Positions 1-48,000 of a DNA stretch of 64,000 nt are shown piece by piece. The notes under the pieces are model-generated. The model was not told where the DNA came from. It searched no databases and saw nothing but the letters and a program-made list of their open reading frames with translations. The stretch is from the NCBI GenBank assembly GCA_943735955.1, contig OX030965.1, positions 6,760,003-6,824,002 on the forward strand, written 5' to 3'. The stretch comes from Piscicola geometra (lineage: Eukaryota; Annelida; Clitellata; Hirudinida; Piscicolidae). The translations under genes were made by a program, and so were the position numbers. Within the stretch, counting starts at the first letter, position 1. Every line of letters starts with the position of its first letter.

Positions 1-3000
1 CTTTGAGCTTAGCGTGCACGCCTCTTCCAAAAATTCATCGCCAACCTTTGGGGTAGTGTGATCGTGAATGGGCTGATGAGAGCAAATAGATTTTTTTTTA
101 AAGAATTTGTTGAGTAAAAAAATTGATTTAATTTAATTTCATACAATTTTTTCGTAGAAAAAATACCTTTCTTGCTTTTCCAGCCTTATCAATACAGCCG
201 CACTCAGAAATATCGACACATTTTCCTTTTTGTAAGACCTATTGAAAATAGAAAGTCAATAATATAATATTTTAATAAAAATATTCAAAAATCCTAAGAA
301 ATCAAAAAAATCCAAATAATGTTTTTCTAAACTTTCAACCACCTTGGCGGGGTCCTTGCAAACGCAGACGTCTTGAATGCTGGCTTCCTTGCAGGTGTCG
401 GCGGCGTTTGGATTGGCGCATGTGTTGAGGCATGGAGGTCCGAAGGGGCGACAGTGCATGTCCGCATCTTGGCATGCACAAGCTGTATCGAGAGGTGGTG
501 TTTGGAGATTTTATGAGATTTTTTTGCGGTTTTTTATGTTGAGAACGTTGTTGCTATTTGGTGCTTTTAAAAAAGTAGGAAGGCTTTGGAGTATTTACTT
601 TTGACTGATGTTTAGAGCTTAAAAGATTGTTTTTAATTATTTTTAAATGTAAAAGTGCAAAAACGTTTTAGTTCACTCACAGCATTTCACGTCGGTTCTC
701 CACTTGGAAACCACCTCTTCCTTCCAGCCCATGCTCCTGCACTTCCTGGCAAACGCCTCAAGACTCCTGCACGTGCTCTCTCGCAAGCAAGTTCGTTTGT
801 AGTCGTTGAGGCACTGCTGAAAAAAGTTTCCCACTTCAGTTTCTTCGAGCATGAAGATGCATGAGCCGAAGGGACCTGTCTTGCTGAGGATGTGCGTGCA
901 CATCGATTGTAGGTTTGACGGACAGTCCAGGATTGGTGGAATCGTCGCTTTGCAGGACCTGTGACGTGTTTTTTAAATGTTTAAAAGTTCGGATTTTAAT
1001 GATTTTTCAATAAAGTTTATCAGTTCTTATTTTTAGTTATATCTCGGTCAAATTTATAAATTTTTATACAAATTTTCTTTAACATTTTCAGTTTGTACAA
1101 ACAAGACAAACGACTAACGGTTTAAGCGACTCATCATACGCCAAAAAGCTGTTTCCGACTTCAATTCCAGGGTTCTCAGTGTCAGATGGAACTTTATTAT
1201 TCGACGTCAGGATGTCATTGGTGGCATCATCGTCGAAGTTTCCGCACAGGCCTTTGACGCTGTAACTGAGCGTTTTGGGCAGTTTCATGTAGAAGTTCGA
1301 TCGGTCACTGAAGCCCAAAACCAAGCCGTATGGCGTTTTGAATTCGAGGTATTCGCCGTAGTAAGTGAGCGAGAAAACTTTGTTCGAGTAGGGCACTTCG
1401 ATGATGTCGCCGTTGTGCTGTTGGAAGCGGAAAAATCGACAAGAATAAGCCTTGAAATGCTTTACATCGAAGACAAGTGATTTAATTAATTAGAATTATT
1501 TAATGATAATTATAATTAAAATAATTATCATTATAATTATAAACACCATGATTACAATTAGCCTCATCAGCGACACACAACCACAGCCAGCACCAACCGT
1601 CACGATGAGTGGTCCGAGCCATTGACTGTCCACCTTCAGCATCTTTATGACGTCTTCTCCCAACAGCAGCTCCACGTAGTTGACGTAGGGTAACTCGCTC
1701 GTGGTGTTAGGCCTTGCATAAATAAAGAAAAAGTAGTTTATTTTAAATAAATGCTTGTATTTTTGGAAGACGACAGAATTTAACGTTTCAACAAATTAGG
1801 CTAGAGATTAGATTAGGTTAAATTTTTGAGACTATTAAACTATCTTTTTGAAGCATCAAAACTATCGAAATTTTGCAAAATAAAAATCGGGTAAAAAACA
1901 AATAACCGGTGCACATTGAAGAAGACGTTGAAGGGATAGTTGAGAGAACTTGATAGAGACATGGAGGTTTTGCAAATGGCGTTGTATTCCAGAACTTTTC
2001 CGTCAAACGTCTTGCAGTACACGTCTCCCCAACACTCACACACGTAGTTGTTTTTGTCAGCTAAAGTTTTGGAAAGTTTTTTATGCTATTTAGTTATTTT
2101 TAAAAATAATAATTTTCATTTTATTATTCTTTTAGTATATTTTATCAGTTTTTTTCATCGATTCAATTATTAAAAATGTGTATCATTGCTGATTTATTTG
2201 GGCTCGTACGGCATATTCCGATGTTTTCTTGCAGTTTCTTTCTCAGAAATTCAACCTCGTCGAATCCCGTAGCCACAAAGTAGTTCGAGTTGAGCTAAAA
2301 ATGGGTTCATTAAAAAATATAATATTTTATTTATTTATTTAATTAATATTTTCAAAAAAAACAATAGTAGATTTTTCTTTCATACCCACACTCTCACAGA
2401 CCAACCTTGCACACAAATTCAAACATTCAACGAGCCCTACCTCATGCGGTGGGTCACTGAGGGTCATGAGACTGAGTTTGTCGATGGAATCGGTGATTCC
2501 GATTGCGACATTCTTAATGTCCATCATCTGCATCTTGAAGGCTTCAACCGGCAGCTCAGAGATTTCTATGGTGGCTTTACCGTCGGTGATGAAAATCATT
2601 AGATTCTCGGCGTAAGGTCGGTCAGCAGGGCTGTTGAAGACCTCCGTTCGAGCGATCCTCAAGGCTGCTGCCATGTTTGTGAGGCCTCCGCCGTAGCTCA
2701 GCTGTTCGAGGGCCGTCAGCAGTGACGGCTTGGTCTTGTATCTGGAAAGAGGGAGAGATTGCCAGGGGGTGTGATCGTTTCAGATGAATTATAAAGTAGA
2801 ATTTGGTTACTTTTGATGTTTGATAAAAATAAGTGATTTTATTTTATTAAATTAATTTTAAATGCTGAAACTAACACGTCCAAGTTCCAGACCAGCTCGG
2901 CTCTAGTTGCGAATTTTATCAGTCCAACCTTGAAGTATCATTTATGTCAATTTTTGAATTCATTAAAAAATTTTAATTAAAAAAATTTTAATTAAAATTT

Positions 3001-3330
3001 TTACAAATTGCCTTTGAACATTAAATTAAAACCTGCGTCATTTCGGGCCCAATTTCCAGATCTTTCAGGATGTTTGCCATCGCTTGCAACACATAAGTCC
3101 AACTATCACATCCTGAGATTTAATTTTAAACAATAACCTCAACGGCAATATAACACAAAATAAATTTATAAATGTATAACTATTTTATTAAATTCTCATT
3201 AAAAGAATTAAAATATGATTTCTTGAACCTATGATGAATCCATTTTGGTCGTGTTTTGGCTTCTTGTCGCCAGAGCAAACACTTCCCGACTCGTCCACCA
3301 AAAACAAAATGTCCATTGGACGCTTGCATC
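1..3330 (-). other. Module 4 of the VWD protein: VWA2 with intact MIDAS, VWD4-C8-TIL, start of E (cut by window edge)
   Basis: VWA2 covers exons 3229-3330 (FLVDESGS), 3033-3112, 2876-2928, 2441-2741 ([11 protein letters not shown] and IFITDGK) and 2210-2294, so all three MIDAS loops are present. VWD4 is 1907-2060 ([12 protein letters not shown]), 1598-1712 and 1119-1417 (GLCGNFDDD). C8 is 681-958, TIL is 344-482 plus 167-238, and the E segment starts in 1-45. No EGF precedes this VWA, unlike module 3. Confidence 0.75.
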
Positions 3331-6300
3331 CTTCGAGTTTGGATTTTGAGAAATTAGTTCATTTTTGGAATAACAATTATCAATTTTATTTTTAATTCAT
3401 TCAAATGGAAAAACAAAATAAATGTTTCTCACTTTCTGATCAACTCACCGACACATTTTTCTTTCTCACAGTTGGAGCCAATCTTGCAGCCATAGGGACT
3501 CACACTGATGGATTTAGGGCCGTCACATGTGTGTTTCTTGGTGCAGTTCTCTGTCGTCCATGATTCGCCTATCTGTTGTTTCACGTCAAAGTAACAGTAA
3601 AAATAAAAAATAAAACATTTGATTAGTCTTTTTTTCAAACACTCACTACCAAAAATATTTTTAAATGTTTTTTTAACATTAAGAAAAAAACAATGAGCTA
3701 CAAAAGCTTAAAATGATCGACTCACAGCTCTGTCTTTCCCGTAGTGGTCAGTGCATCCGCAGAGACTGGGGCTGATGCAGCGTTGGTTGAAGAGCACTTT
3801 ACCTTCGGGACATGTGCAAGTGTCGGCGGCATCAGGTAGAAGACAGGTGGTGATGGCGTTGGGATTGGAGCAGGTGGGCAGACAGGCAGATGCCTTGACT
3901 GCACACTGCATCTCAGGCGGACATAAACAAGCTGAAGGATTGATGGGGGGATGGGGTAAGATGGGATGGGTGGGTGGAATGATGGGGTTTTAGTTAGGGT
4001 GAAACTTTCAATATTAAATAAATTGAAAAAAGTCAGTGGGTTAGTGAAACTCACGGCATTGAGTGGCAGTCCTCCAGTCGATGACGATGCCCTTAGACTG
4101 GCAAAAGCGATCAAACTCAGCAAAAACTTGGCATTCGGCCTTGTAAGGACTCACGCAAAGGTCCAGAAGGTCTTCCTCACACCTCGCCTGGTACGCCTTA
4201 GCCTCCTTGGGGTACTTGAGGGCGCATGGGGCAAATACTTTGTTGGTGGCGGTGAGCAGCTTGCAGATTAGAGGGTACAGTCGGCAGACAGGCTTTAAAC
4301 TCGAGTCTGAGCACTTTCTGATTTTTTGTATTTTAAATAGATTTCAGTAATCTATTAATATTTAAAAATGATTTATTATTAATACATCTAATTATTTTGT
4401 TGATAAATCTTTAATCACCCATCAATGGCAGTAGCATTGTCAGCCCAGCTGTCTCCGATCATAGTTGCAGCAGTGACGGTCGTGAGTTCGCTGCTGACGC
4501 TCAGTTGCGTTCCCCCCTTCAGAGCCAAATCATTTTTCGTGTTTCCATCGTAGTTTCCACAGAATCCTTGCACTTCGTTCTTGAAGGTCGGATTGACGAT
4601 CACCTTGGCGTAGTAGAGTTTCGAGAGGGACACTGAAATGTCCAGAGACGTGCTCACTTCAACGGCGTCTCCGTTGTAAAAGGCGTAAAAGTCGTCTTCG
4701 GCGTAAGGAATGCTTTTCTCAACGCCGTCCACCTAGAGAATTGATCGTTTTTTGAATTAATTAATTGAAAAGTTTTGCGATAAAAATGGGTGAATGTTTT
4801 AAATCTCACAAATAAATTGACGAGACTGCCGATTGATTTGATGAGTCTTTCCAGCACGATCGTCCTTCCATTGAAGATAATCTCTACTCGGTCGGCGAAG
4901 GCGTTGTATCCGGTGGGGAAGGGGTTTGTGTTCTTCAGCCAGACTTCAATTTCCCCGAAGCTCGACTTGTGCTGCATCATGAGGAACCTGCAAAAGCCCT
5001 TGTACTCCAGGTCAAGGTTGTCGAACGTGTTGCAACGTCCGTCCCCCACGCATGAGCACGTCACCAGCGCTTCGGCAGCTGGTGGTTTTTAAGATGCAGT
5101 TTTAAATTTTTTTGTATGTTATAATATAAAATAATACGTAGTTGTAAAGAACTTTAGAAAAAAGGAGATTCCAAATTTGATTGATGTGTCAACCAACCGC
5201 AAAGATTGAAGGACTTTTGCACGTGTTTCTTGGTCATCTCGATGGCGTTGACGCTCGGCACGATGAAGTACTTCCTTTCTGCCGCCTTCGTGGGAAAGAA
5301 TTCATAAGTTCAACATGTCAGTTTAAAAATTGTTTTTATATTGAAAAATCTAAAAGAAAAAATATAAGTTTTTTAATCACTTCACAAACCGATTCTGACT
5401 GCACGAGGTTTTTGATGTTTTTCTCGTTGACTTTTTCGCTCGTAACCACAGCAGTGAACCTTGCCCCTAACTCCTTCAGGGCTTCCAGCTCTTCAGAAAC
5501 CTAGAAATGCAGTTCAAAAAGCGAATAAAACTATTCGCCTAAAAATGAAAACAGATTTCGTCAAATAAACTCAACACATCTCAACAAAACAAAACACATT
5601 AACAAATCGCCCTCAAACTTGTCAATAAAAATCCACCCACCTCGCTGTTGAGGGACTTCCATGAGTTGAGGATGAAGAGGACGTGGTTGGAGGCGCTTGG
5701 ACGGTCGAAGGACGTCGTGAAGACACTTTTCTTGAAGATTTTCAAGGCGGCAGCGACGTTTGCTTCCTCGAAGTCGAAACTGATCGAAGTTTCTTTCAGC
5801 AGTTTGAGCAGTCCAAGAGAGTTTCTAAATGGTTAGTTCGAAAAATAATATTATTAAAATAAATTTATTGATCTAGTTAATTATTTTAGTTGTTAATAAT
5901 ACTACATATTACTTTATTTTACTAATTTCATTGTTAATAATAAGACATATTACTTTATTTAACCAATTCAATTGTTAATAATAATAATAATAGTCCACAA
6001 AACTACAAAAAGCACTAACACGAATCCACGACCGATGAGGGCAGGAGTGGCAGACAGTTTCACAATCGCGATATTGTTATCTGGAGATCCAATCTGCAGA
6101 TACGTGATGATCTTGGCGACATAATCGAGCACTTTTTTCCAGCGATCACAAGTGTCCCCATCGAATGTTGGGTCTCCCGTGCACTGCGACTGCGTGTTGT
6201 CGATCACTATCACAGTGTCCATCTTGTCGTTGCAAGCTGAAACATGAAAGGGGTTGGATGGTTAATGGTTATTTATACAAAAATGACTACTAAATTTAAA

Positions 6301-25400: not shown

Positions 25401-28400
25401 ACAAAACTTCCACCACCTTCTCCCCAAGCACACCCAAGCCGCAGCAACCCCCTCCCACACACAGCATCTCCTGCATACGCTCCTCTTGCTGATCTGTCCT
25501 CACCTTCTTCTTGCTCTCAACCTGTGTACCAGTGGTCAAGTGGTTAAGCACTCTGCCCTTAACCCGGAAGGTTGTAGATTCGAATCCTACGAATCCCTCA
25601 TAGTACATACAGATTTGTGCAAGGAATAACTTTCAGTATTGTAAATAATGGCCTAGAAGCACATTCTGTATCAGATAATAAATTATTATTATTAATATTA
25701 TTATTATTATTATTATTGTTATTGTTGTTGTTGTTGTTATTACCTGTTTCTTCCTCTTTTCATGCAACTCCTGTAACTTTAGGCGCTTCTTTTCCACCTC
25801 TGCTTGTAGTATCTTGTAGTGACGATGACGATGATGACGATGATGATGATGATGATGATGATAATGATGATTTGTTGCTTATGTTAAGGAGTTGGATGAT
25901 TGAAAGCTTATTATAGCTTAGTGAGGTTTCCAGTCAATACAAAATCGTGGGAGAATTTTCATCAATTCAAAAGATGAAAAGTGTATTATGCTCCTAAATA
26001 ATATTAAAAAATAAATGCAAAGTTGAGCGCCACAGAATGTCCAAACATACAGGGTCATTGGTGGTTGCGTCATCAATGATGAAACCCACTGATCCAGTCT
26101 CCGAAGCATCCTCATCCGTCTTAAGGAAAGAGGGCGATGATGAGGCGTTGGATTTAAGTTCACTTTTAAGCGTTTTATCTTCGCTTTTTTTAGTTTTTTG
26201 GTTATTGTTGTTGTTGTCGTTGATGTTTTCGTTGTTGTTGTTGTTGTTGTTGAGAGATTTGTTTTCAGATCTACCATCGCTTGACTGACTGTTGGACATT
26301 CTAGAGCTCCTGGTAGTAGTAGTAGTGGCAGCGGCGTTTTTGCGGTAGCTTCCAATTTGCGGCTTGGGCCTCTTAGGTCCGTCTAGGTCGATTGTGAAAG
26401 ACTCAGGTTGGGGTCGGGGTTGTTTGGCGGCATGTTGTTGTTGTTGTTGTTGTAGTTGTAGTTGTTGTGGAGAGTTGCTGGTGCTGTTGTATTCGGTTTC
26501 GTAGAATGACGAAGCCAAGTTGTTGGTGGCTTCGAGGTTGTGGTAGATTTGTTGTTGTTGTTGTGGCGAGAGGTAGCCAGGGGAGGAGAATGAGTGGCGG
26601 GAGTGGGACAAGAGCGAAGGACGTCGATGGTGCTGATGATGATGCAGGGGGGAGTTGAACTCACTGGAGAAGCTGAGAGGAGGGTACGAACTGGAGGTCT
26701 GGTGTTGTCTGAATGCGTGCGTGAAGTCAGCTTCAGTGGAGTGGAAGTAGTCGGAGATGACGGAAGAAGGTCGCTGAAAGCTTTTACGCGCTGGAATATG
26801 ACTGGCTGTGGTGGTGGTACGATGGGCGGAGCTTGACTCCCTACGCGACCTCGAACCGTCTGGGAGGTACTGAGGTTGCCGAGTGGGTGACCTTGGGAAG
26901 CCGCCAAGACTGGTGTCTCGCTTGATTTTGTGACCTTCCCTCCTCCTGTCTAGACTTCTGAATTGAGAGTGGTAGGCCGACTGTACAGACGGTTGTTGTG
27001 GCTGCTGCTGCTGATGATGATGCAGTGGTGGTGGTGGTGGTGGTGGTGGCTGAGAAGGGTGGCTGTAGAGGTGGTTGTAGGGTGGAAATGGATAGTGCGG
27101 GTAGTAGCCAGGGGGTGTGTAGAGGGGGTAGTAGGGGTAGGGATGGTGGGGAGGGGCCATGGAGGGAGGGGGGTAGTGTGGAATGTCATTGCGGGGGAGA
27201 GTGTGGTACGCCATGGGATCTGCGTACAGGGGGACTTGTGGCGGCGTCATGTACCTGTCGTTGAAGACTGAGTCGTTGGTGAATGACCTGGTCGGGTAGG
27301 TGTCGTTGTTGTAGTGCTGGTTGCTGCCACTCCGATGTGACGGCAGCTGCTTCTGCTGCTGGATCCTCTGAGCCCTGCCCTGGCTGCTGTAGCGCTGGAA
27401 AGCTGAGCCTTCATCCTCACCATCAACACAATGGTTTCCTTGCTTGTTGTTGCTTGCAGCGTGGGATGCTGAAGAGAGGTAACCATCGGAAGAGTGTACT
27501 TCAGCTCTCTCCTGCAACACTTCTTCATCGTTGTTGTCATCGTCACCATCATCACCTTGAACCCCATCATCATCAGCACCATTATCATTATCACCCCCAA
27601 CATTATCATCATCAGCACCATCATTGTACCCTATTTGATCTTCGAAGACACCCTCATTGGCCACTCCATCTCCATCACCATCCACTCCACCATCCTCCAC
27701 TCCCTCAAAAGCACCATTATCATCTTGCACATCCTCCTCCTCCTCACCCTCCTCTTCCTCCTCATCGCCTTGACAACCAGCCTGGTTGCTAGGCAGATTG
27801 GCACGGACCTCTCTAGGAGCATTAGAGGAAGTGGGAGATTGCTCCAAGGCGTGCTGCAACGAAAGCTGCATTATCTCGCTCTGCAACTCGGTCAGGCTTG
27901 AGTTCAGTCTTTCCAGGGATGTGCCGTACGTGTTTTTATCGGATGATTTGGCGTTTGGTTTGGAAGGTCTGGCTGATTTCGAAATTTTGATTGTCGTTGG
28001 CTTGATCCACTTTCGTCTCTCGCCTGTGGAATGTTGTTGGTGATGTTGTGGCTGTTGTTGTAGTAGCTGTTGTTGTTGTTGTTGTTGAGGATATTGTTGT
28101 TGTCTTGAATGAAGCTGTTGTTTTAATGTTGCTGCAGGCTTGTTTCTACTGGACAGTTTAGAACCTGGAGGAGGTTGTTGTTGTTGTGGTTGTTGTGGTT
28201 GTTGTTGATGTTGTTGTTGTCTGGGTACAACTTGTTTGGTGGGAGAGGTCTTGGTGGTGAGTGGTGCTTTGAAGGGGAAGGGTTTGGGCGGGAATGGTTT
28301 TGTAGGTGAAGGCTTTTGTCGCAGGAGAGATTGTTGTTTGGTTGGTGATTGCAGCTTCGAAGTTGTTTTTGTTGGTGAGTGTTGTGGCAAGGTTCTGTGG

Positions 28401-29578
28401 CTGGGGCTGTAGTTGTGGTTGTTGGGCTGAGCAAGTCTTAGAGATGGTCTGACGAGTTGTTGCTTGTGTTGTTGCTGTTGTTGTTGCTGTTGTCTGGGAG
28501 TTTCAAATTGTTGCTGTTGATGTTGTCTGGGTGTTTCAAATTGTTGATGTTCATGTTGTCTGGGTGTTTCAAAATGTTGTTGTTGATGTAATTGTTGTTT
28601 CACAGGGCTTTTTGCATAGTTTCTGTTGCTTGCTTCATTATAAACATGGTTGTCTTCGTTATTGGTATCATAATTTGAATGATTTCTAGTACTTATAATA
28701 TTATCACTATCATTTCTATGGTTTCTGTCTTCCCTAAAGTTCCTATTATCACTCGCAAAAAGTTTTCCAAGGACATCACTGGACTCCTGGCCATAGTAAC
28801 TCTTGCTCATTTTTGCAACATCTCGACTTGTCTGCAACGACCGTGTGTTGTTGCTTTTTGAAATGGTGTTGAATTGGTTGTTGTTGTAGTTGTTATTCAG
28901 TGGGTTGTTGTTTAAATCAATGATGTTGTTGTTGCTTTCATTTTGTTGTAGTGTTGTGTCGCCATTGTTGTTGCTGTTGTTGTCACTTGATGGAAAGTGA
29001 GGGATGACGGAATTCCTGAAATTTTTGTTGTTTGAATCTTGCTTGGAAGGCCTTAGCAGCGAATGGAAAACCTGTTTGTTGACAGCATTTCTCTGTTGTG
29101 ACGCTTCTTGCTCCTGTCGTTTTTTTTCTGTTTCAATTCGTTTCCTCCGTTCTTCCAAACGCTTCCTGATGCTGACCAAGTCACTGTCACTCACCTGCTC
29201 GTGCGGATTGATGAGATTTCTCGAATCTAATTCAGTTTTGGTCAGCGTGCTAGAAAGAGTGGTTTTTTCTGCTGCTTGTTGTGGGTTTCTGCTTGGGATT
29301 CTGAATGTGCGTCTGGTAGATGAACCCTCAGACTGCTTGGTTAATTTAGTTGAGACGTCTGCATCGCCTTCATTCGTGGTGGTAGTTTCGGCATTCATTT
29401 TTCGAAAGTCGTCTGCTTGAAACCTCGGCTGGGCTGGGATGGCGGTGAAAGGGAAGGCTTCGTGCGGGTCGAGGATGAAGCCCTCTGCTGGTGGAGTGTG
29501 GTACTCTTCGGTCGGTGTGGAAGACTCACTGGTGCTTTTCATGCCCGTCAAATCAAGCGTCGAAGGCTTGCTAGCCAT
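22460..29578 (-). CDS. CAMSAP: CAMSAP/Patronin microtubule minus-end binding protein (no CH domain visible)
   Basis: Exons (minus): 26051-29578, 25744-25812, 25463-25521, 25081-25246, 24592-24709, 24277-24315, 23584-23702, 23104-23267, 22460-22643; phase is continuous, 1,481 residues. The C-terminal CKK domain (about 1326-1470) is clear: PKLFVKPNQKSNRSIV, VLFRDAGLQFRGVYSYSPE, IYGVGPR and the YKYNSG junction. CKK recognises microtubule minus ends. A conserved coiled coil, RKRLEERRKRIETEKK, sits at residues 134-165, and a second charged coiled coil (EKKRLKLQELHEKRKKQ, then QRRQAIFKQYLQRK) precedes the CKK. The 3.5-kb first exon is mostly Q, N, S and P low-complexity sequence with an acidic D/E tract. 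The start ATG at 29578 (CAAAATGGC) has an in-frame TGA just upstream. The family's N-terminal CH domain is absent; exons hidden far upstream are possible. Exon 24277-24315 is the weakest. Confidence 0.85.
22918..22994. repeat. Dispersed repeat, copy 2
   Basis: Matches 17967-18042 in the same orientation (ggtcttgaa, tttacgccacgt, aataatactcg, then tgtattgtattg). It lies in the last intron of the CAMSAP gene. Confidence 0.6.
23700..23945. repeat. G-rich GGGT/GGTT minisatellite
   Basis: Irregular repeats of ggtgggtgggttggtgagt type in the CAMSAP intron directly upstream (in gene orientation) of CKK exon 23584-23702. It reads as proline/threonine-rich frames on the minus strand; these are artefacts. 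Confidence 0.85.
24718..24890. repeat. 16-bp minisatellite (ggatggttggtgggtg)n
   Basis: About ten copies of a 16-bp G/T-rich unit in the CAMSAP intron adjoining exon 24592-24709. Confidence 0.85.
25525..25740 (+). repeat. tRNA-derived SINE in a CAMSAP intron
   Basis: A tRNA-like head (25525-25600) contains an A-box-like TGGTCAAGTGG and a B box AGATTCGAATCC, followed by a unique body and a (TTA)n tail from about 25680. No full cloverleaf is recovered, so it is not called a tRNA. It fills almost the entire 222-bp intron between exons 25744-25812 and 25463-25521. Its head abuts the splice acceptor, so it is in antisense orientation to CAMSAP. Confidence 0.7.
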
Positions 29579-30104
29579 TTTGTGTCAAGGCCTCTTAAAA
29601 CATCCCTGCAGCTCTAAACTGCCGAGGTTTGTGAGCTTTTAAATGTCTATTTAAACAACTTGATTCTGATTAAAATATTATTTGCTTTTGCGAAAATTGA
29701 AAAGTACAAATTTTTGTTGCATACGTTTCTGACCGGGCATCTAATTTTAATAAAAAGTGAAATACTAGATTATGAATCGTCGAAACAAAAAGAAAATGAA
29801 GTCGCAGCCACCTGGTGACAGAAAAATATTAATCTTTTGCAAATTATTCTTATATTTTAAAAGCATTTCTTATTTCTAATTGTTTGAAAAATACATTTTA
29901 TAATAATAATAATAAAGTAAACACACATGTGTGTACACAGTAATATCACGAGTGTTAGTAGTTATCACGTGTTTACAAATACACACAAATCCTACACTTC
30001 CATTCTGCATTGCCTAAATTGAATTTGAACCAGACAACTGATGAACACAAAAATAAATTATTAATTAAAGCTATTTATTTAAATTTATAAAGAATTATTC
30101 ATTG
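29579..30104. promoter_or_regulatory. Shared head-to-head region of CAMSAP and RRAGC
   Basis: 526 bp separate the two divergent start codons. The sequence is AT-rich and shows no clear TATA box for either gene. It must hold both 5' UTRs and probably a bidirectional promoter, unless CAMSAP has exons further upstream. Confidence 0.45.
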
Positions 30105-31490: not shown

Positions 31491-32496
31491 AGTGGGTTTT
31501 TTTGGTTTTATTGCCATTTAAAAAATATATTATGAAATAAACTAAAATCCATCTTTCACATATTTAATTACCTTTAATTGCTATTAATAGATCATCATCA
31601 TCAAGTAACAAACACGCGCACACAGAACTCAGGCATAGACAAAGTGTACCTCTTTGACATCGTCACGAAGATCCACGTGGCGGCTGACATCCACCCGATC
31701 GAGAACGAGATGTATGAGTTGTGTTGTGACATGATCGACGTCGCCCTGGACATCACCAGCCTTTATGGGTGCGTGCGTGCGTGCATTTGTGAGGGGGCTG
31801 GGAGGAGTGGGGAGAGGTGGGGTGGTGAATATTTTTTGTGTGCATTGGTGGATAAGGGAGCATGTTGGGTATGTATTTAGTGGGGGCGTTGGTGCATAAG
31901 GGGGTGGGGGTGAGGGTATTGAGGATGAAGGTAGTGGATTGTAAATGAAGTTTCTTTCTATTTAATTTTCCTCCTTGTCCAAAACGTACTTAATAGACCT
32001 GAGTCTTTAGCTCATCACCTACGAACAGAGAGAACGACGACGACACGGAGTACAGCGGCTTCGACGACGAATCCAGCTCCATCATCAAACTCAACACACA
32101 ATACGTCCTCTACCTCATCCAGGTTCTTGTTGTTCTCGTCAAGGCAATCAATGGCCGCCAGTTTTGTTTAGTAAACTAATTGTTCGTCTGTTTTTTGAAG
32201 ATTTTTTTACGAAATTTTTTTTATGATTAAATGTTCGGTTATTCAGGTGAACAAGCATTTGGCAGTTGTTTGCATAATACAGGAGAAGAACTTCCAAAAG
32301 AGAGGTTGTATTTATAGAAAATGTTACCCATAAAGCCCATCAAAACCACCATCATTCAACTACAACCATAGGCACCATCGACTACAACTTCGAACTCTTG
32401 AAGAAGAAAATCAACCAGACTCTGGAGCAATACAACCCGCTCAAGAACCGAAAATCCCTCACTTCTTCCCTACAGCACCTTGCACAACCCGACTGA
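30105..32496 (+). CDS. RRAGC: Ras-related GTP-binding protein C/D (Rag GTPase)
   Basis: Exons 30105-30267, 30378-30514, 30648-30747, 30942-31041, 31281-31395, 31626-31768, 32011-32122, 32247-32304, 32372-32496; phase is continuous, 350 residues. RagC/D pairs with RagA/B on the lysosome and recruits mTORC1 in response to amino acids. Visible motifs are the P-loop GLRKSGKSS, the RagC-type [17 protein letters not shown], the G3 block [13 protein letters not shown], and VFIHKIDGVNDD, followed by the roadblock-type C-terminal half with the ELCCDMIDV and [11 protein letters not shown] blocks. The short N-terminus lacks the approximately 50-residue extension of human RagC. The ATG at 30105 is chosen over the upstream in-frame TTG. 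The donor of exon 5 lies inside a GT microsatellite. Vertebrate RagC and RagD arose from one ancestor, so C versus D is not meaningful here. Confidence 0.92.
31147..31225. repeat. Dispersed repeat, copy 3 (diverged)
   Basis: Starts ttggtcttaaagc and ends tgtattgttttgtatttaa, resembling 17967-18042 and 22918-22994. It lies in an RRAGC intron. Confidence 0.4.
31395..31487. repeat. (GT)n microsatellite at an RRAGC splice donor
   Basis: About 46 GT units beginning at the exon boundary. Exon 31281-31395 ends TCT and the intron opens directly with the repeat. Confidence 0.95.
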
Positions 32497-32632
32497 ATTA
32501 CCGTTACAATGTATCGCTTTTCAAAATGTATTTGTATGATAACGTCTTCCCTTTGAATGGTTTCGTTCTTTAAGGATCAACTGACCTTTAATTTAACACC
32601 GTCCTCGATGAATTCTGATTAAATTGCTTCGG

Positions 32633-32638
32633 AATAAA
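32633..32638 (+). terminator. Poly(A) signal of RRAGC
   Basis: AATAAA 137 bp after the stop codon, the first canonical hexamer downstream. The RPL19 signal on the other strand lies only about 90 bp away, so the two genes converge closely. Confidence 0.6.
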
Positions 32639-32720
32639 AGCTTTAAACGTTCAACTATCTACATTGCTGCAAGAACACTTAATTATTATGCGTAATTAGA
32701 AAGATGAATATTTGTGGGTA

Positions 32721-32726
32721 TTTATT
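32721..32726 (-). terminator. Poly(A) signal of RPL19
   Basis: AATAAA on the minus strand (TTTATT on plus), 67 bp after the RPL19 stop codon. Confidence 0.6.
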
Positions 32727-32792
32727 GTAACAGCAACGAATCAAGATGACGAAGACCAATCACGGAAGAGCAGCAGACGAGATGCCGACCAA

Positions 32793-35766
32793 TCAAGCTG
32801 CCGCCTTCTGTTCATCCTCGACGGCATAGGCCTTCATGCGCTCGTCCTTCTTCTGCGCGATCCTGTCGGCCCTCCTCTTGCGAGACTCCTTCACCCTGTT
32901 CCTGCGTGCCTCTGCCTGGTCACTGTGGGGTGAAGAGGGTGATGGAGGTGATTTGGGTGAAGAGTGATGTCCAGTGGTTTGAGGAAATTGGTGCTATGAG
33001 TGTTATAATTAAGAGGATGCAGTTTAAATGTAAGTTGCATGGTTTATCACCCCTCTAATGGCCTTTCAGCTGAGGAATGGCTATGGAATATGCAAAACCT
33101 CATCATGAGATGAGACAATCTATGACATTGTGGTTGGATGACCTCATGTTTCAAGAGAACACATCAGTATCCTTGGCACCACAGTAGAAACCAAAAGATG
33201 CCAAGAGAACTTAGCATCAGTTGGTTTCAATGTCAATAAGTAAAAAATGACAAAAGAATAAGTTAAAAAATATTTGGAAAGGCATCAAAGAAAGAACTAG
33301 AAATGAAAGTGGAATTCTAAATAGTAAAGGCTTAGAACTTGAAACAAGTTTGAAAAATAGATAAAGTTGTAGAGGGTTTGAAAGGAATGTAAGTTGCATG
33401 GTTTATCACCCCTCTAATGGCCTTTCGGCTGTGGAATGGCTATGGAATATGCAACACCTCATCATGAGATGGGACAATCTATGACATTGTGGTTGGATGA
33501 CCTCATGTTTCAAGAGAACACATCAGTATCCTTGGCACCACAGTAGAAACCAAAAGATGCCAAGAGAACTTAGCATCAGTTGGTTTCAATGTCAATAAGT
33601 AAAAAATGACAAAAGAATAAGTTAAAAAATATTTGGAAAGGCATCAAAGAAAGAACTAGAAATTAAAGTGGAATTCTAAATAGTAAAGGCTTAGAACTTG
33701 AAACAAGTTTGAAAAATAGATAAAGTTGTAGAGGGTTTGAAAGGAATATAAGTTGCATGGTTTATCACCCCTCTAATGGCCTTTCGGCTGAGGAATGGCT
33801 ATGGAATATGCAACACCTCATCATGAGATGGGACAATCTATGACATTGTGGTTGGATGACCTCATGTTTCAAGAGAACACATCAGTATCCTTGGCACCAA
33901 GTAGAAACCAAAAGATGCCAAGAAAACTTAGCACCAGTTGGTTTCAATGTCAATAAGTAAAAAATGACAAAAGAATAAGTTAAAAAATATTTGGAAAGGC
34001 ATCAGAGAAAGAACTAGAAATTAAAGTGGAATTCTAAATAGTAAAGGCTTAGAACTTGAAACAAGTTTGAAAAATGGATGAAGTTGTAGAGGGTTTGAAA
34101 GGAATATAAGTTGCATGGTTTATCACCCCTCTAATGGCCTTTCGGCTGAGGAATGGCTATGGAATATGCAACACCTCATCATGAGATGGGACAATCTATG
34201 ACATTGTGGTTGGATGACCTCATGTTTCAAGAGAACACATCAGTATCCTTGGCACCACAGTAGAAACCAAAAGATGCCAAAAGAACTTAGCACCAGTTGG
34301 TTTCAATGTCAAAAAAGCGAAAAAAATCTGAGTTTAAAATGTTTAAAAAGTGAAACATAATAAATTGAATATTTAATAGTGAATGAAAACCAAAACTAAT
34401 TAATTTTATTCAATGAAGGACTTACTTGAGCTGCTTGGTTCTGGCGTTCTCCGCCTTCTTCTTGTGGATGTGCTCCATGAGGATCCTCTTGTTCTTGAAG
34501 ACGTTACCCTTGCATTTCATGTACAAGCTGTGGTACCTGTGGGTGCAAATGTTTGACCAAGATTAGTATATTTTTATTTTCGTTTGAAAGTTTTTGGAAA
34601 AAGATTGAGCTCAAGGTTTGAATGAATGTAAGTTGCATGGTTTATCACCCCTCTAATGGCCTTTCGGCTGTGGAATGGCTATGGAATATGCAACACCTCA
34701 TCATGAGATGGGACAATCTATGACATTGTGGTTGGATGACCTCATGTTTCAAGAGAACACATCAGTATCCTTGGCACCACAGTAGAAACTAAAAGATTCC
34801 AAGAGAACTTAGCATCAGTTGGTTTCAATGTCAGCATATAAAAATAGATTTTATTAATGCAATTTATTGTATTTATGATGTAAGTTGCATGGTTTATCAC
34901 CCCTCTAATTGCCTTTCAGCTAAGGAATGGCTATGGAATATGCAACACTTCATCATGAGATGGGATAATCTATGACATTGTGGTTGGATGACCTCATGTT
35001 TCAAGAGAACACATCAGTATCCTTGGCACCACAGTAGAAACCAAAAGATGCCAAGAGAACTTAGCACCAATTGGTTTCAATGTCAACACACACAATGAAG
35101 AAAAAAATATGAAAATAAGAAGCATGAAAGTGTACTCACAGGTGTTTGTCGATCTTTTTGTCGTCACGGTACCTCTTCAAGAGCCTCCTCAACACCCTCA
35201 TCTTCCTGATCCACACCACCTTCAGGGGCATACGGGCGTTGGCAGTACCCTTCCTCTTTCCAGTGCCGGTGTGCCTTCCCTTCCTCCTGGCGATCAAGTT
35301 CTTTCTCACCCTCGCCCTCGAGTGCACTGCCACCGGCTTCTCGATGATCAGACCATTTTTGATCAGTTTTCTGATGTTTTGTCCTAAGAGAGTGTAATGG
35401 ACGTGTAAAATGAAGCAATAACGAAGCTTGGAATGTCAATGTTTGCAACGTACTTGAGTTAGCATTGGCAATCTCGCTTGTTTCGTTGGGGTCCAACCAA
35501 ACTTTGTTGCGACCGCATTTCAACACCGCCGCCGCCAACCTTTTTTGAGACCTCAGAGTTCTGTTTAATAGTTTCAAAAGATTCTATAAATGCCTTGAAG
35601 AAATATGAGCGATAGAACAAATAACGACAAACGTAGAGTCATCACAGAGCATAACTTTAGGATGAAATATTAAGATAAAATAAAAATATTAGAAAATGAA
35701 AATGAATTTTACAATGAGCATGTTTCGAGATGAAACAATTTGAAGAAATGAAAGAGCTAACCCCAT
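32793..35766 (-). CDS. RPL19: 60S ribosomal protein L19 (eL19), host gene for intronic snoRNAs
   Basis: Exons (minus): 35762-35766, 35454-35560, 35140-35383, 34426-34536, 32793-32922; 198 residues against 196 in human. eL19 is a structural protein of the large subunit. Conserved blocks are [78 protein letters not shown] and the basic C-terminal helix. Exons 2-5 are certain. The tiny first exon (ATG GG) is inferred from phase, the short pyrimidine-rich leader and the usual minimal first exon of this gene. Introns 3 (34537-35139) and 4 (32923-34425) carry two and four copies of a U17-type snoRNA in sense orientation, which would be released from the spliced lariats. Confidence 0.93.
33026..33235 (-). 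ncRNA. SNORA73: U17/snR30 (E1) H/ACA snoRNA, copy 1
   Basis: About 210 nt, RPL19 intron 4, sense strand. U17/snR30 is the H/ACA RNA needed for 18S rRNA processing rather than pseudouridylation; known U17 is about 207 nt. Reading the minus strand: a long 5' hairpin closed by TGACATTG/CAATGTCA with inner stem CTTGGCA/TGCCAAG; a middle hairpin near CATGATGAG; then a 3' hairpin closed by TTGCAT/ATGCAA and ending CTTACATTT, so ACA lies 3 nt from the predicted end. The 3' internal loop has ATATTCCATA (m1-like; reference AUAUUCCUA) on one side and AAACCAT (m2) on the other, the U17 hallmark. The apex is GCT-GAAA-GGC. A clean H box is not seen between the hairpins. Confidence 0.82.
33385..33594 (-). 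ncRNA. SNORA73: U17/snR30 H/ACA snoRNA, copy 2
   Basis: Same structure as the copy at 33026-33235, RPL19 intron 4. The m1-like and m2 elements are intact, the box reads ACA and the apex is GCC-GAAA-GGC. The closing stem of the 3' hairpin extends to GTTGCAT/ATGCAAC. One mismatch lies in the CCAC/GAGG stem. Confidence 0.82.
33744..33952 (-). ncRNA. SNORA73: U17/snR30 H/ACA snoRNA, copy 3
   Basis: RPL19 intron 4. The m1-like and m2 elements are intact and the CCTC/GAGG stem is perfect. The terminal box is ATA instead of ACA, an accepted variant of the ACA box. One base is missing in the loop of the 5' hairpin, making this copy 209 nt. Confidence 0.8.
34102..34311 (-). ncRNA. SNORA73: U17/snR30 H/ACA snoRNA, copy 4
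   Basis: RPL19 intron 4. The m1-like and m2 elements are intact and the terminal box is ATA. In the inner 5' stem the first C is replaced by T on the sense strand (TTTGGCA/TGCCAAG), turning a C-G pair into a U-G wobble. Confidence 0.8.
34624..34833 (-). ncRNA. SNORA73: U17/snR30 H/ACA snoRNA, copy 5
   Basis: RPL19 intron 3, alone without the spacer that accompanies the intron-4 copies. The m1-like and m2 elements and the ACA box are intact. One mismatch lies in the inner 5' stem (CTTGGAA/TGCCAAG) and one in the CCAC/GAGG stem. Confidence 0.8.
34876..35085 (-). ncRNA. SNORA73: U17/snR30 H/ACA snoRNA, copy 6
   Basis: RPL19 intron 3, only about 40 bp from copy 5. The m1-like and m2 elements and the ACA box are intact. 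The apex is GCT-GAAA-GGC and the stem below it is CCTT/GAGG; both substitutions keep pairing as G-U wobbles on the sense strand. It is the most diverged copy. Confidence 0.8.
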
Positions 35767-35800
35767 GCTCAGAGAGTATAAAAAGAAAAGGCTGTGCAAT
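35767..35800 (-). promoter_or_regulatory. RPL19 core promoter with TOP-like tract
   Basis: On the minus strand CCTTTTCTTTTT (35780-35791) lies about 15-25 nt before the ATG. An uninterrupted pyrimidine tract at the cap site (5' TOP) and a very short leader are typical of ribosomal protein genes and give mTOR-dependent translation. The start site is inferred. Confidence 0.45.
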
Positions 35801-37000
35801 CTATTTCCTACATTTTACTGAAAAGCGCATCACAGTTTTGCAAAATTTCAAAAAATATACTTTTTTACTAACTTTTTATTTCATGATAGTACAATTATTA
35901 TTTATATAAATTTTGAAAATTTTTCATTTTGAAAACTTTTTCTTCTATTTTTTAACAATTTAAACAGTCTTTTCAAATCAGCATGTACCCACTCAAAAAC
36001 TTTTTTTAATGTTTAAAAGATCTAGTGACGATGTGACGTCTGCACTACGTTAGAAAATACGTTCATATATCATCGCTGCAACAATCCTGCAAAAATATTT
36101 TTTTATTGTTGGATAGGAAAAATAATTCCAAAACTGGAAAAAAAGTGATTGAGAATGTTAGAATTTTTGGTTGAATTTTTGGTTGAAATAACAATTATTT
36201 CAAGAATCTTATAAGATAAATTGAGAAATCTAGTTCAAAGTTACAGCACCTTAGTAAGGACGGATGTCATAATTGATGAGATGACCGTTTGTATTTAGTA
36301 TATGCACCTAAGTTTATGGGCAAATAACTTCCAATTATGATATTAAGGTAGAAATTATGCCTCTAAACTCCTTTAAATAATTAACGATTTGTCACACCAT
36401 AAAAGTCTTGGTGATTTATGAATATGCCAGGAAATACAACTTTTAAAGATTCTGCAAAATATTTCTAACTTTTTCGTTAAATTCATTTCGAGTTTTTTTG
36501 CTGTATTTGGCATTTGCTACTTTTTTTCTTCTCAGTTTCATAAAATACTCTAAAAAGGAAATTAGCTGAATACGAAAAAATAATTTTTATAAATCACGGA
36601 TCTGAGAAATGTACAATTTATGCTTCAAGATCATATCTATATAGGAGAAGACGAAAAAAGAAAAAAAAAATACTTTTTACGTAAGAGAAACGTTGATTTA
36701 TACTTGGGAAAAACAACAGGTTTTTGAGTTGGTTTTTGCTGACAATATTTTCAGTGATTTCTATTTTAAAGATTTACTGTGAAAAAAGATAATTTAAAGG
36801 TTTACATGTGTATAGTTTGAAGAAGTATGAGTTACTGTCCAAAATATAAAAGTATATATGTTACAGTCAAATCAGAACTTTCAATTAATCAATCAATCCA
36901 ATACATTGCGTAAAGCCTGCAACTCATGCACTTCTCGTAACGACTGATCCCCCTGGTAATTAAGCGTTTTAATAATAATAATAATAATAATAATGCCTAT
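35801..37000. other. Intergenic spacer, AT-rich
   Basis: Between the divergent RPL19 and peptide-precursor genes. It ends in an (AAT)n tract near 36970-36992. No exon or RNA gene seen. Confidence 0.55.
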
Positions 37001-42059: not shown

Positions 42060-45000
42060 CTATTTTTTTGGTTTATCTTTATTACTAAAAAATGCCATGA
42101 ATTTATTTCTTGGCGTCGTGATTTTAACCTTCATGCTGTGACTTCCACCAAAAGCTTTGCCTCTCTTCTTCTTAATTTTCTCCTCATCGCCTGTGATCAA
42201 ACTGTCGAGACTCAGCTTGCTCAGCATTCCATTTATTGCGTTTAAATGGTCTTCGCTTTGACTCTTGTTCTTGTTGTCGAGATAGGAACTTTGGCTAGAG
42301 TGGCTGGATTGCGAGGCCAGACTGGCATTGCTGGAGTTGACGAGTTGGATATCCAGTTTTGAGTTTAGTCGTTTTCTCGGCAAGCTGTTGGCGTTTCGAG
42401 CGAAAGGAGAAATGAAGAATCTATTTTGAGAAGTTGGAGATTTCGGGATGGAATTGAAGTTCTTATCGATGCTTGAAGACGACGCGTTGATGTGGAATCT
42501 TTTGTCTGGACTTTTCAGAAAGGTGAATAACCTAGGCAGTTCTGCGTCTTTGGTGAGTTTGCAGATTATGTCCCGGCAGTCGGTGTTGATCTCGGAGTCT
42601 TGCCAGTGTTGCGAAGGCGTTTGGAACATGCAATCAAACTTCTGCACTTCCGATCGGGGACACGGCTCCAGGTCCAGTAAGTAGTTTCTCCGTTCAATTT
42701 CACTCCTTGGGACGTAGTGGTTTTGTGGTGGGTCGTCTGGTGGGAGGAGCTTCATGATGATGACGTGGCCATCTTTTCTCCCAGCGAACATCACATAGCC
42801 ATAGTCCATGCTTGCCAGCGTGGTCAGTTCTTCATGTACATTTGCCTGAGCTATCACCTCTCCCTGCTTGACACTTCCCACTTTCATCAGACATTCCACT
42901 TCATCAAACCAGAACAGGTACATCCCGTCATACGTCAGACGAGCTAGACTCACTTCAGGCTTGTTGTTGTTGAGGCTTTTAGTCGCACCATCAAGCGCTA
43001 CATCATCATCATTATCATCATCATCTCTGAAAGACGCAACCACATCTCCGGTCTCCAGACTGAAGACCTGCAAAAACCCATCAACGGCGTACAATCCATT
43101 CTTCGAAGCGTCACAAAAGCCGCTTTTTGAAACGCCTGTGATCTGGAGTTTCGACTTGCCAGCGCCGTGGAAGTCCCACAGAAGGACGGAGGAGGTGTTT
43201 TGTTGTGTGCGTGAAGTGACGAGGATGGAGTGGTGTTTGACGGGAATGCACGTGAGAGAGTCACAAGAGGGGAGCGAGTGTCTCTTGCAGGGCGCCATGT
43301 TCTTGAGACTGTACACGATTATGTTTGCGCCCGCATCGATGTACAACAGGAACTGCCCGTCCAGCGTGAAAACTGGACTTTTTGCTTTCTGGAAGCAGAC
43401 GATTTTTGTTTCTTTCCTCACATGCCACAAATTCACTTTATCTTGGTTTTCGTAAAAATCGTCTGAAGCCATCAGATCCCAGTCGGGACTGAATTCAAAA
43501 TGTCGGCACTGCCAGTCGACTTCGAGGTGTGCAGTGAAAACGACCAAGTTCTTGAGAACATTAACCACACTGACGTACCACTGACTGAGCGTGTTGAGCA
43601 GCAGGGCGAGGTATTTGCCGTCGTGAGAGCACTTCATTTCGATGAGTCGTCCGTACTTGCAGAAGGGAATGTAGTTGATGCAGCTGCCCGTCGAAACGTT
43701 CCAGACGTCGATTCCGAACCGGTCGAAGAACTTGTAGCCACTGGAGCTGGAGTTGAGAGCGAAGTAGGACTTGACGTAGACGAGTCTGTTGGAGGGCGAA
43801 CAAGCGATGCAGTCGATCGGGTTCATGTAGACCTTCGGAGACTTCACGTTCACGTTGTCCTTCTTGTCCAAGTCCCAAACCCTCACCGCCGAGTCGATGG
43901 TTGAAGCGGTTGCGATGATGTTTTTAGACTTGGACACACACCATGGAAAAGGGAAGTCAACGGTGGAGTGGATGGTGATTCTGCGCATGAATTCGCCGTC
44001 GGTTGAGTTCCAAATGTTGAGGTAGTTGTTGGAACTGGCGAGAATCAGTTGAGCGTTGTGGTTGAAGGAAGACTTGTTGATGGTAGACGGCAGCGTTCTG
44101 AGATAGGAGTCGTTTGCGTGCTTTTTCGTTTCTTTCATAGCTACGTAAGAAGATGTTTTGACATTTACATTCAAAAGTTGGTTTTTACTAACGTTAACTA
44201 ATATGTTGTTCGGTTCTTTTTGACAAATGTTGATTTCAAATATTTCCGGTAAAAGACTGAATCCTTGGAAAAAAACTGAGCATTTCTTGCTGGAAAACTC
44301 GAACAAGTCGATCTGAAAAACCACCTGACCAAACGCTTCACTTTCCAAATTGATATTCACCACCACCAGCAAGCAAGTGATTTCATAGCCACAAAAAAGG
44401 TGTTGATCGTCAGCGGAGGTTTGAAGGACGCTGATTGTTTTGTCACTCTGCTCGATCGAAGTGATGAGAACTTTTTTGTTCAGTTCAAACATCTTGATGA
44501 AGGAAGATTCCGAAGTGAAAATGAATCTTCCGTTGTGCGTCAGAGCGCATGGCACGTAGCTCTTGCTCTGACAAAAATCATCCACCTCCCTCATCTCTTT
44601 CACCCTTTCAACGTCAATTATACTTTTTTGCCGACAGAATAAATTCCCTGCGATGAAGCCTCGTCTAAAAAATTATTTAAAAAATTATTTTTAAATAAAC
44701 TCATTTTTTGACAATTAAAAAAAAGCAAAACAAAGAATGTGAATTTGGTTAAAAAACAACCTGATTGTGGGCTGTCTCACTCCTAATCGGTGCATGCACA
44801 GGCCAGTCTTTGAGTCGATTATCAGAAGAGGGCTCTCATTGTGATCGGAATCAACCACCAGACACTTCTGGTCGATAGTCTGAAAAAGTCGAGTCATGCG
44901 TCCAGGCTTCACGTAAGAAATATCGATTATTCGATTTCTTTCTCCGTCCACCAAGTCCCAAAAGGCGATGTAGCCATCTCTCGAGACTGAGATGAGTTCG

Positions 45001-48000
45001 TTGTTGCAATCGTTGATTTCCAAGTCACACACTTGCTGGTTGTGGCCTTCGAGGACGAACATGGCGGTGGATCGGGGAGGTTCGAAGCAGGGAATGAGCG
45101 GGAGGAGAGCTGAGTGCTTCAGTGACTCTTGGTCGCATTGTTGAAGAAACATCTTGACGTCGTTCTGGCTTATGGAGGCGTTGGAACCCTCGTTTGGCAG
45201 TTCGTCGTTGTAGTAGTTCAGCAGACGACCTGACAGGTCAAACGCCAAGGATCTCGGGTTGTCGTTGATTCTGCCTCCACTCATTCTCAGCGCATTGTAC
45301 ATCAGAGAGATGTCTTCGTGGTTGTCGTGGGTCTTTATGACGAGGGAGTAGTCGGAGAGCGCCTCGTGAAGCGACATTGCACTCAACTTGGCGTACAACC
45401 ACTCGTAGTTGAACAACACCTTGCGTCTCAGGTCGACGTACATCCTGCTCATCAGCATGTGGAAGGGCAGTTCTGAGAGCTTGCGCAAGTTGAAGTTTTC
45501 TTCGGAACTCTCTTCGTTCATGATTTTCCCAAAGACGAGAGGCTGCGCAGGAACTTTTCGGTCTTCCAAGCCTTCCGCCGCTTCAATTTTTAGGAACTTT
45601 ATTTGTTTTTCCGAATACTTGAAGGGCTTTTGGTTTCCATTTCCCCATGTTCCCATGAAGTAGTGCGCTAGAACATTGTGTACGTAGGTTCGATGTTTCT
45701 CTACCGACAAATACCTTTTCTTGGCGACATTGATGAATTGCGCGTGAAACCACGAGTAGACCATTGTGCCGTTGGACTCTCTCTGGATGATGTAGCTGGA
45801 GAGTTCAAGAAGGAGTCTCGGAACGAGGAGGGGTGGGATTCTACGGAGAGGAGGCAGCCAGTGCTGGAAGACGTCGTTGAGCACTTCGTCGTCCAACGAG
45901 AGAACATCTTCCAACTCTACGTCACTGAGACCTTTCCTCGAAGCCGTCAAGTAGGAGAGCGTGTGTTTGACGAAGAGATGTCCATGCGTTCCTTCAACGC
46001 GGTCGAATAGAGAACAAATGATCGCTTCTATGGTGTCTTGGAGGGTAGTTTGGTCCGGAGTGAAGTAGGACCTCCACTGGCGTATTTCCTCAAAGACCAG
46101 TTTGGTGAAGAGGGGCAGACTGCACTGCGACAGGGCAGCGTTCACGATGCAGAATTGATCAGTCGTCAAGTCGATGTTGCTCGCTCGCAGCCATTCTTTG
46201 ATCAGAGCGATCGAGATGTGCGCGCCTAACGGGTGGATTTCAATGAAGTTCGATTCTTTCACATCGACCATCTGCGTCTGTAGCGTGGTCAGTATGTTGA
46301 GGGTGTGAGGCACTGTGGAGACGACCAGACGCACGTGTTCTGGTAGCTCGTAAGGCAACCAGGCCAAGCCATGAGCCTTGTGTGAGGATCCTAGTTGGTC
46401 CAGGCCATCGAAGATCAGTACTAGAGGCTTGTTTTTTGTCGGAATCTGTTATAAAGATTTAAAATAACCTAGTTAAGCTTGTAAATATTAAAGTCAACAT
46501 TAATTTCTTGATAAATAAAAAACAAATTGTTGTAAAATTATTTTAAAATAATTAAAAACCTTTAAAATTTCTTGAAAGTAGAAAACAAGGCTCGGATAGT
46601 CGAGAGGGATTTGCGCATTTTGAAGTTCGTAAGCCGCTGCGATCTGCCAACAAACACTGCTCAGAACCAACCGGATGCTGCAACTTAGACATGTGGTCCC
46701 TGTTGGTTTATTGTTTTCATTATCTTTAATTGATTTATTTATGTATTATAAAATACATAAAAAATTTTAATTGTTTAGATTTTGTTGATTTTTTGTGTGG
46801 TTGTTTTTATAAAAATAAAATATCAGTTTTTCACCTAAAAATCTGTATACCACGATGGGTTGAATGTGGTTACTCTGCAAAGACCAGCTTTTAGTCTCAA
46901 ATGCAACCTAAAAAAATTAATTAAATTGTTAATTTATGGCAAAACAACTTTACAAACATAAAAAAATAATTCAAACAGAAAGAGAGCATCAAGTATACAT
47001 TTTTAATTTCACTGGTTTATTCATTTTAAACGATTTCATTAACACTAAATAACTTTAAACAGCATGAACTATGATTTATTGAAGATTAGAATGACAGGAT
47101 TAATCTAACTCGCGCGCACACGGAAGTTTTTCCACTGCCGTAATCTCCATACAAGACCAGTGGTTTGTTGATGACCGCTTCGTCTGACGCCTGTGAAGGC
47201 GGTTGGGAACGTGTGGTGAGGTACAACTTGATCTGTGATTGGTTGGTCATTGGAAACTTGAATAATTGAGAAAATTGAATAAAATTATTTCAATAAGATT
47301 ATTATTTAATATATAAAAATTTATTTATGAAAATTAAAATAATCAAGTAATTGTTAACCTTCTTGAGAAGCGCCTCTCTCCCCCTCAAACTCTCACTCCT
47401 GGTTCTTCCCATCTGCAACTGCTGAATTATCTCGACCACCTTGGGCATTGAGTTGATCTTGGAGATCTTTTGAGCACTCTTCCCAATCAACCACTTGATC
47501 TTGTCGCGGAAGGAGACTGCGAATTCGTTCAAGTACTCTTTGTTGTCGGCAGGGTCCTTGTGTTCTGTGTCTTCCCAGTTCACCTAGCGAATTTTTTGTT
47601 TCTTTTGAACTTTAATTCTAAATTTTACATTCTGGTATGCTCTGAGTTTTCGTTAAGATATGTCTGAAAAGAAAAATAATTTTTAATTAATAGTTTTTAT
47701 TTACATCAAAATACTCGTAATTCCTTTCGTCTTTCAGTGAAGATTGAATCTTCTTGTTCTGGAGCTCGTTCAACAGTCCTTGAGCCTCAGAGTCGATTTG
47801 TGGAGAAGAAGAAGATGAGGAGGAGGAGGAAGAGAAAGTTGAGGTGGAGGATGAGGAAGAAGAAGTTGAGGTGGAGGATGAGGAGGAAGGTGGGAGCAGG
47901 TCCAAATATGCCTTGCAACTCGGTTTCGTGTAATTTTCTTGAAGGTTTCGGATTGTTCTGACAAAACAAAGGCATGTTTCTTCTGGATTTTCGACGTTTA

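Follow-up and report, generated by a model that had tools for sequence, protein, structure and literature searches.

Introns 3 and 4 of a ribosomal protein gene, RPL19, in the annelid Piscicola geometra contain six copies of one element of about 211 nucleotides (nt), and it is very likely that these are six intronic U17 genes whose RNAs are excised with the two introns and act on the precursor of 18S ribosomal RNA (rRNA), an explanation that is compatible with only some of the six copies working. The copies were found in a stretch of 64,000 nt (the window; positions 6,760,003 to 6,824,002 of contig OX030965.1, assembly GCA_943735955.1), and all positions given below are those of the window. 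An initial annotation had assigned six elements of about 210 nt on the sense strand of RPL19 to U17 (also named snR30, E1 or SNORA73), a small nucleolar RNA (snoRNA) of the H/ACA class, which is ancient and assists in the folding and cleavage of rRNA. At the level of sequence this assignment appears to be largely right, and the function of the elements would follow from that of the family. The span given in that annotation, 33026..35085, starts at the correct position and ends one base too early, at 35085 instead of the model end at 35086.

Identification of six U17 elements

A repeat search returned the element six times, always on the minus strand, and the covariance model of the Rfam family RF00045 (SNORA73/U17) matched 6/6 copies over model positions 1 to 219 when the region from 32000 to 36500 was searched at the E-value level, with scores of 46.7 to 54.2 bits and E-values of 2.3e-9 to 1.8e-11. 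Nine matches were listed in this region, six of them being the copies and the other three having E-values of 0.97 to 4.1, and no H/ACA family other than U17 was listed there up to an E-value of 10 (overlapping hits of the same clan were left out). The U17 identity that had been proposed is therefore borne out by full-length and highly significant matches, though these lie below the curated cut-off; at the Rfam gathering cut-offs, zero RNA families were matched in the window. When the RF00045 model was run over the 171-Mb assembly (E-values up to 10; 29 of the 2754 first-look candidates were scored), it returned these six only, with E-values of 2.0e-8 to 1.6e-10, and nucleotide searches of the assembly, one using the entire element and one its last 97 bases, likewise returned only the same six copies. 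A second U17 locus was thus not found in the 171 Mb by either kind of search, with the model scoring limited to those 29 candidates. In a control, 5 of 14 genomes also gave matches to RF00045, none of which was above the cut-off.

Four of the copies lie in intron 4 (32923..34425, minus strand; 1503 nt, GTAAGT...CACAG). Copy c4 (34102..34312), the first after exon 4, has an AUA tail and scored 50.4 bits (E 2.2e-10), with a folding z-score of -3.6; c3 (33744..33953; tail AUA, 47.8 bits, E 1.1e-9, z -3.7) has a single base deleted within the 5' domain; c2 (33385..33595; tail ACA, 54.2 bits, E 1.8e-11) has a z-score of -4.6 without flanks and of -3.6 with short flanks; and c1 (33026..33236; tail ACA, 46.7 bits, E 2.3e-9, z -3.8), the last before exon 5, has a broken pair where its 3' stem begins. 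Intron 3 (34537..35139, minus strand; 603 nt, GTGAGT...CACAG) carries c6 (34876..35086; tail ACA, 51.8 bits, E 8.5e-11, z -3.3) and c5 (34624..34834; tail ACA, 51.2 bits, E 1.3e-10, z -0.9). In intron 4, 113 nt separate the 5' splice site from c4, the copies are separated by three gaps of 148 nt each (33954-34101, 33596-33743 and, between c2 and c1, 33237..33384, all on the minus strand), and 103 nt follow the end of c1 before the 3' splice site. The corresponding distances in intron 3 are 53 nt before c6, 41 nt between c6 and c5, and 87 nt after c5. Intron 1 (201 nt) and intron 2 (70 nt) contain no copy.

The coding region of the host gene (32793..35766, minus strand) consists of five coding exons (35762-35766, 35454-35560, 35140-35383, 34426-34536 and 32793-32922), which were joined and translated into 198 codons and a stop with the frame intact, and it is on the same strand as all six elements. 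The 5-base first coding exon is our choice of start and the least certain of the five. All four introns start with GT and end with AG. We take the gene to be RPL19 from the likeness of its product to the human protein rather than from a family search. Upstream of the start codon there is a pyrimidine run, CCTTTTCTTTTT, which presumably resembles that of terminal oligopyrimidine (TOP) genes. A division of the array into introns with one snoRNA each was considered and rejected: by the narrow consensus GTRWG, the only site in intron 4 is its own start, and the two sites in intron 3 both fall within a GTGTG run.

Predicted fold and the m1 and m2 motifs

The consensus fold begins with a 6-bp basal stem that carries two hairpins (a branched 5' domain), followed by a linker that contains the H box and by a small internal hairpin; in the 3' hairpin, which comes next, a 7-bp lower stem leads to a pocket and then to the upper stem, and the ACA or AUA tail is last. 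Of the "two main hairpins" described in the initial annotation, the 3' hairpin was recovered, and the rest of the shape proved more complex, with its branched 5' domain and internal hairpin. The tail triplet stands three bases from the model end, as had been noted before; it reads ACA in c1, c2, c5 and c6 and AUA (ATA in DNA) in the other two copies, c3 and c4. Counted along the consensus fold (columns 210-225), the ACA lies 16 nt from the top of the pocket, which is within the 14-16 nt given in PMC7601244. For five copies, the folding z-scores ranged from -3.3 to -4.6, and 0/100 shuffles folded as well.

Both ATATTCCATA and AAACCAT in the 3' hairpin are invariant in 6/6 copies, in agreement with the annotation, and in the RNA the m1 core AUAUUCC and the m2 motif AAACCAU are exact in all six and located at the base of the 3' pocket. 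In c2, for example, m1 (AUAUUCCAUA) is at 33441..33450 and m2 at 33398..33404, both on the minus strand, and the motifs are the same in the other copies. The m1 motif begins atop the lower stem of the 3' hairpin and continues into the 5' side of the pocket, and m2 mirrors it on the 3' side, an arrangement that is also described for snR30/U17 in PMC7601244. Positions 8-9 of m1 are AU here instead of the usual UA, an ending that is indistinguishable from an A inserted before UA. In Table 1 of PMC7601244, which gives m1 for 14 organisms, position 8 is U in 14/14 and position 9 is A, U or G, so that the one-base difference in m1 pointed out by the annotation is real, whether it is read as AU for UA or as an inserted A.

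In yeast, rm1 corresponds to positions 801-806 of 18S rRNA and rm2 to 836-841 (PMC9176245), and a helix 806-836 is reported between them in the solved snR30 particle (PMC12095548). A complete eukaryotic 18S from a contaminant contig (L069; model positions 1-1831) has AUGGAAUA from position 799 and UUGGUUU from 835. When these positions are combined with those of yeast, rm1 is therefore GGAAUA and rm2 is UGGUUU, and UAUUCC of m1 and AAACCA of m2 are fully complementary to them, respectively. Since the known m1 helix consists of six pairs, UAUUCC:GGAAUA, positions 8-9 are outside it, and therefore the m1 difference leaves the known contact unweakened. Furthermore, UAUUCCAU would form 8 pairs with AUGGAAUA, compared with 6 for canonical m1, and the predicted duplex energies are -8.2 and -6.4 kcal/mol, respectively. 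This comparison was made on five eukaryotic 18S stretches of other organisms chosen with a pattern that includes AUGGAAUA, and they are therefore uninformative on the conservation of that site. Judged on these 18S sequences, the AU ending of m1 may strengthen the contact with 18S rRNA. A scan of bacterial genome contigs gave these five stretches, 5/5 with a match to eukaryotic small-subunit rRNA, and 55 stretches from viral contigs that were considered as 18S were discarded, 0/55 having AUGGAAUA within about 170 bases upstream. As a side observation, five bacterial genome records in GTDB (L065-L069) carry eukaryotic 18S rRNA genes, evidently through contamination; the record of Planomonospora parontospora (L069) contains a complete 18S with 5.8S and a partial 28S, together with a match to 5S on the opposite strand.

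Relationships among the copies

The element bodies are 94-99% identical among the six copies. The three spacers of intron 4 are identical at 144-147 of 148 positions (1 to 4 differences), and because of these near-identical spacers the intron 4 copies, with the spacers between them, form a tandem array with a unit of 359 bp, whose copy number probably grew by unequal crossing-over of this unit. Outside the unit, the flanks are unrelated and identity does not extend past the RNA ends that were predicted. In the nine pairs with c5 or c6 as a member, 198-208 of 211 positions of the bodies are identical and the identity of the 40-base flanks is 12-40% (ungapped); when c4, c5 and c6 are compared pairwise, the values are 198-204 of 211 and 20-40% (ungapped). 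Thus c5 and c6 share only the element with the array, except for a few similar bases just after c5. Such a cessation of identity at the RNA ends is indicative of selection on the RNA, of sequence exchange confined to the element, or of both. It was also found that c2 is closest to c5 of the other intron (3/211 positions differ), yet its flanks match those of c3, and that each of the four possible combinations occurs at alignment columns 40 and 189 (A/T in c1, A/C in c2, G/C in c3 and G/T in c6). Together these suggest sequence exchange between copies, although repeated mutation could also give the combinations at columns 40 and 189. From the copies alone, selection on m1 and m2 was not significant, as 19 of the 211 columns are variable and 0 of the 22 pocket columns, for which the chance is 0.11.

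Other features of the window and the assembly

Two long open frames of 870 and 577 codons are located at 42060-46448 on the minus strand, with WD40-type matches in both and an NWD1-type winged helix in the second, and together they resemble a single NACHT/WD-repeat gene in the vicinity of RPL19. An open frame of 1196 codons at 25994-29584 (minus strand), with a CAMSAP CC1 domain match and abundant Q and N runs, is probably a gene for a microtubule minus-end protein. Matches to VWA (2339-2779) and VWD (4654-5088) within 2339-5088 of the minus strand probably belong to exons of a large extracellular protein.

Elsewhere in the assembly, contig C66 (15,135 bases; L071, L072) is mitochondrial and has 21.8% GC; the protein genes recognised in it share one strand and are arranged as cox3, nad6, cob, atp6, nad5, nad4L, nad4, nad1, nad3, nad2, cox1, cox2, which we take to be the usual annelid order. 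Ten of these genes were checked with Pfam, nad6 being below the curated cut-off and nad2 matching a general antiporter-like domain only, and nad1 was recognised by eye. The COX1 frame has 12 internal TGA codons in the standard code, can be read through for 522 codons with tables 5, 9 and 13, lies within a longer frame under table 14, and is not open under table 2. We assume table 5 (invertebrate), chosen from conserved COX1 residues.

Discussion

The proposed route by which these elements would act is drawn by analogy with the known family, from transcription and trimming to protein binding and function. The U17 copies would be transcribed within the RPL19 pre-mRNA and leave it in the excised introns 3 and 4; dyskerin/Cbf5, Nop10, Nhp2 and Gar1, the core proteins of H/ACA particles, would bind them, and trimming would yield stable RNAs of about 210 nt. 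The m1 and m2 motifs at the base of the 3' hairpin pocket would then pair with rm1 and rm2, two elements of expansion segment 6 (ES6) of the pre-18S rRNA, and this pairing would hold the ES6 region apart during assembly of the small subunit, with no pseudouridine made. With four copies in one intron and two in another, trimming from the ends would leave the inner copies joined, and therefore endonuclease cuts within the spacers are likely to be needed to free them. Other invertebrates, as well as plants, have introns that carry several snoRNAs in tandem. The excised intron is described as being processed exonucleolytically at both ends, with the 5' end also ascribed to an unknown endonuclease (PMC7601244). 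A more specific version of this scheme, which we regard as speculative and somewhat unlikely, is that m1 in this lineage has changed so as to form a helix of eight rather than six pairs with rm1 (UAUUCCAU:AUGGAAUA, 18S positions 799-806), altering the grip on ES6 and its release, and that in addition the six copies from two introns are made as tandem precursors cut by an endonuclease.

Several observations weigh against the interpretation of the elements as six U17 genes. All six copies are 20-27 bits short of the curated RF00045 cut-off of 74 bits. The RF00045 model is built mostly on vertebrates, and we infer that such a shortfall is what it would give for a distant animal. The H box (consensus ANANNA) is complete only in c6 (AGAUUA) and reads AGAUUG in the other five copies, with G instead of A as the last base, and the tails of c3 and c4 are AUA instead of ACA. 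Folding of c5 is weak (z -0.9, with 17/100 shuffles as good) because of two mismatches that break pairs in its first hairpin, and the single-sequence minimum-energy fold of c6 differs near the linker and pairs the last five tail bases. Compensatory changes were seen in 0/65 pairs of one alignment fold and in 0/63 of another, and a shuffle control did not lend support either (98.9% paired, compared with 99.0% in the shuffles, for the 63-pair fold), so that, with no covariation among the copies, it is the Rfam model that supports the fold. The A at position 8 of m1 is unlike all 14 organisms in Table 1 of PMC7601244. Furthermore, searches of the assembly for the 18S of this animal, made with the 5.8S family, an 18S 16-mer and a 260-base 18S stretch and run without a eukaryotic positive control, all came back empty, and the ribosomal DNA thus seems to be missing from the 171 Mb searched. 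Finally, conservation of the bodies in intron 4 (2 to 7 mismatches per 211 positions, plus the deletion in c3) does not exceed that of the spacers (1 to 4 per 148), which speaks against strong recent selection on every intron 4 copy.

Some of these observations would be accounted for by a mixture in which a single copy or a few of them function as U17 genes and the rest are decaying duplicates, a possibility that should be taken seriously while falling short of probable, and one that would narrow rather than exclude the explanation preferred here. The broken pairs and z-score of c5, the AUA tails of c3 and c4, the pair lost at the 3' stem base of c1, the off-consensus H box of five copies, and the bodies of intron 4 that are conserved no better than the spacers all fit such a mixture. 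In contrast, m1, m2 and the pocket are invariant in 6/6 copies, though with 0/22 pocket columns against 19/211 variable ones this has the chance of 0.11 given above, c5 and c6 are at least 94% like the other copies while their flanks are unrelated, and AUA tails occur in known H/ACA RNAs. In addition, yeast snR30 can do without its 5' hairpin (PMC7601244). The general H/ACA build and the scores under the Rfam cut-off would also suit a pseudouridine guide or other H/ACA RNA that resembles U17 by chance, but this is highly improbable in view of the full-length RF00045 matches, the lack of any other H/ACA family up to an E-value of 10 in the region searched, and the position of both m1 and m2 at the pocket base, a site that pseudouridine guides do not use for target pairing. 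Nearly identical tandem copies could likewise be expected of a repeat family or mobile element sitting in RPL19 by chance; that is scarcely conceivable for an element of which only six copies were returned from 171 Mb, in one orientation and in two introns of one gene, with boundaries that coincide with the ends of the model.

As U17 genes, the six elements can be compared with those of other organisms. They are like vertebrate U17/E1/SNORA73 (RF00045) in length (211 nt here and 207 in human), in being intronic and on the sense strand of the host, and in having a branched 5' domain, an internal hairpin, a 3' hairpin with m1 and m2 at the pocket base, and an ACA tail; the first three of these structural parts are described for human U17 in PMC7601244. 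They are unlike it in the m1 motif (AUAUUCC-AU here, AUAUUCC-UA in vertebrates), in scores 20-27 bits under the cut-off, in the off-consensus H box of five copies and in the AUA tail of two. In Xenopus laevis, U17 is found in all six introns of RPS8 (PMC7601244), so that repetition in the introns of one ribosomal-protein gene is common to both animals, whereas the host here is RPL19 and the copies are crowded, four and two per intron, rather than spread across all introns. Yeast snR30 has the same m1 core, m2 and logic of 18S targeting, but it is a 606-nt independent gene (PMC7601244). CeN96 of Caenorhabditis elegans (221 nt), the sole invertebrate animal in Table 1 of PMC7601244, is similar in length and has AAACCAU, but its m1, AUAUUCCUU, has U at position 8 as listed there, in contrast to the A found here.

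U17 RNA itself and multicopy U17 in ribosomal-protein introns, as in Xenopus RPS8, are already known. The new details, as far as the literature found shows, are that RPL19 is the host, that its introns are crowded with four copies in one and two in another, and that m1 ends in AU. The initial annotation had suggested that the host was undescribed, which holds for RPL19, since no paper joining RPL19 with SNORA73 was found by one search of the open-licence literature, and does not hold for multicopy U17 genes in a ribosomal-protein gene as such.

These results bear on the U17 family in several ways. RPL19 adds a host gene to the habit of U17 of residing in the introns of ribosomal-protein genes, and Rfam, when used at its cut-off, overlooks the U17 of this animal. 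With four copies in a single intron, the release of inner snoRNAs can readily be examined here, and the m1 ending is a natural variant whose pairing with 18S rRNA is directly testable.

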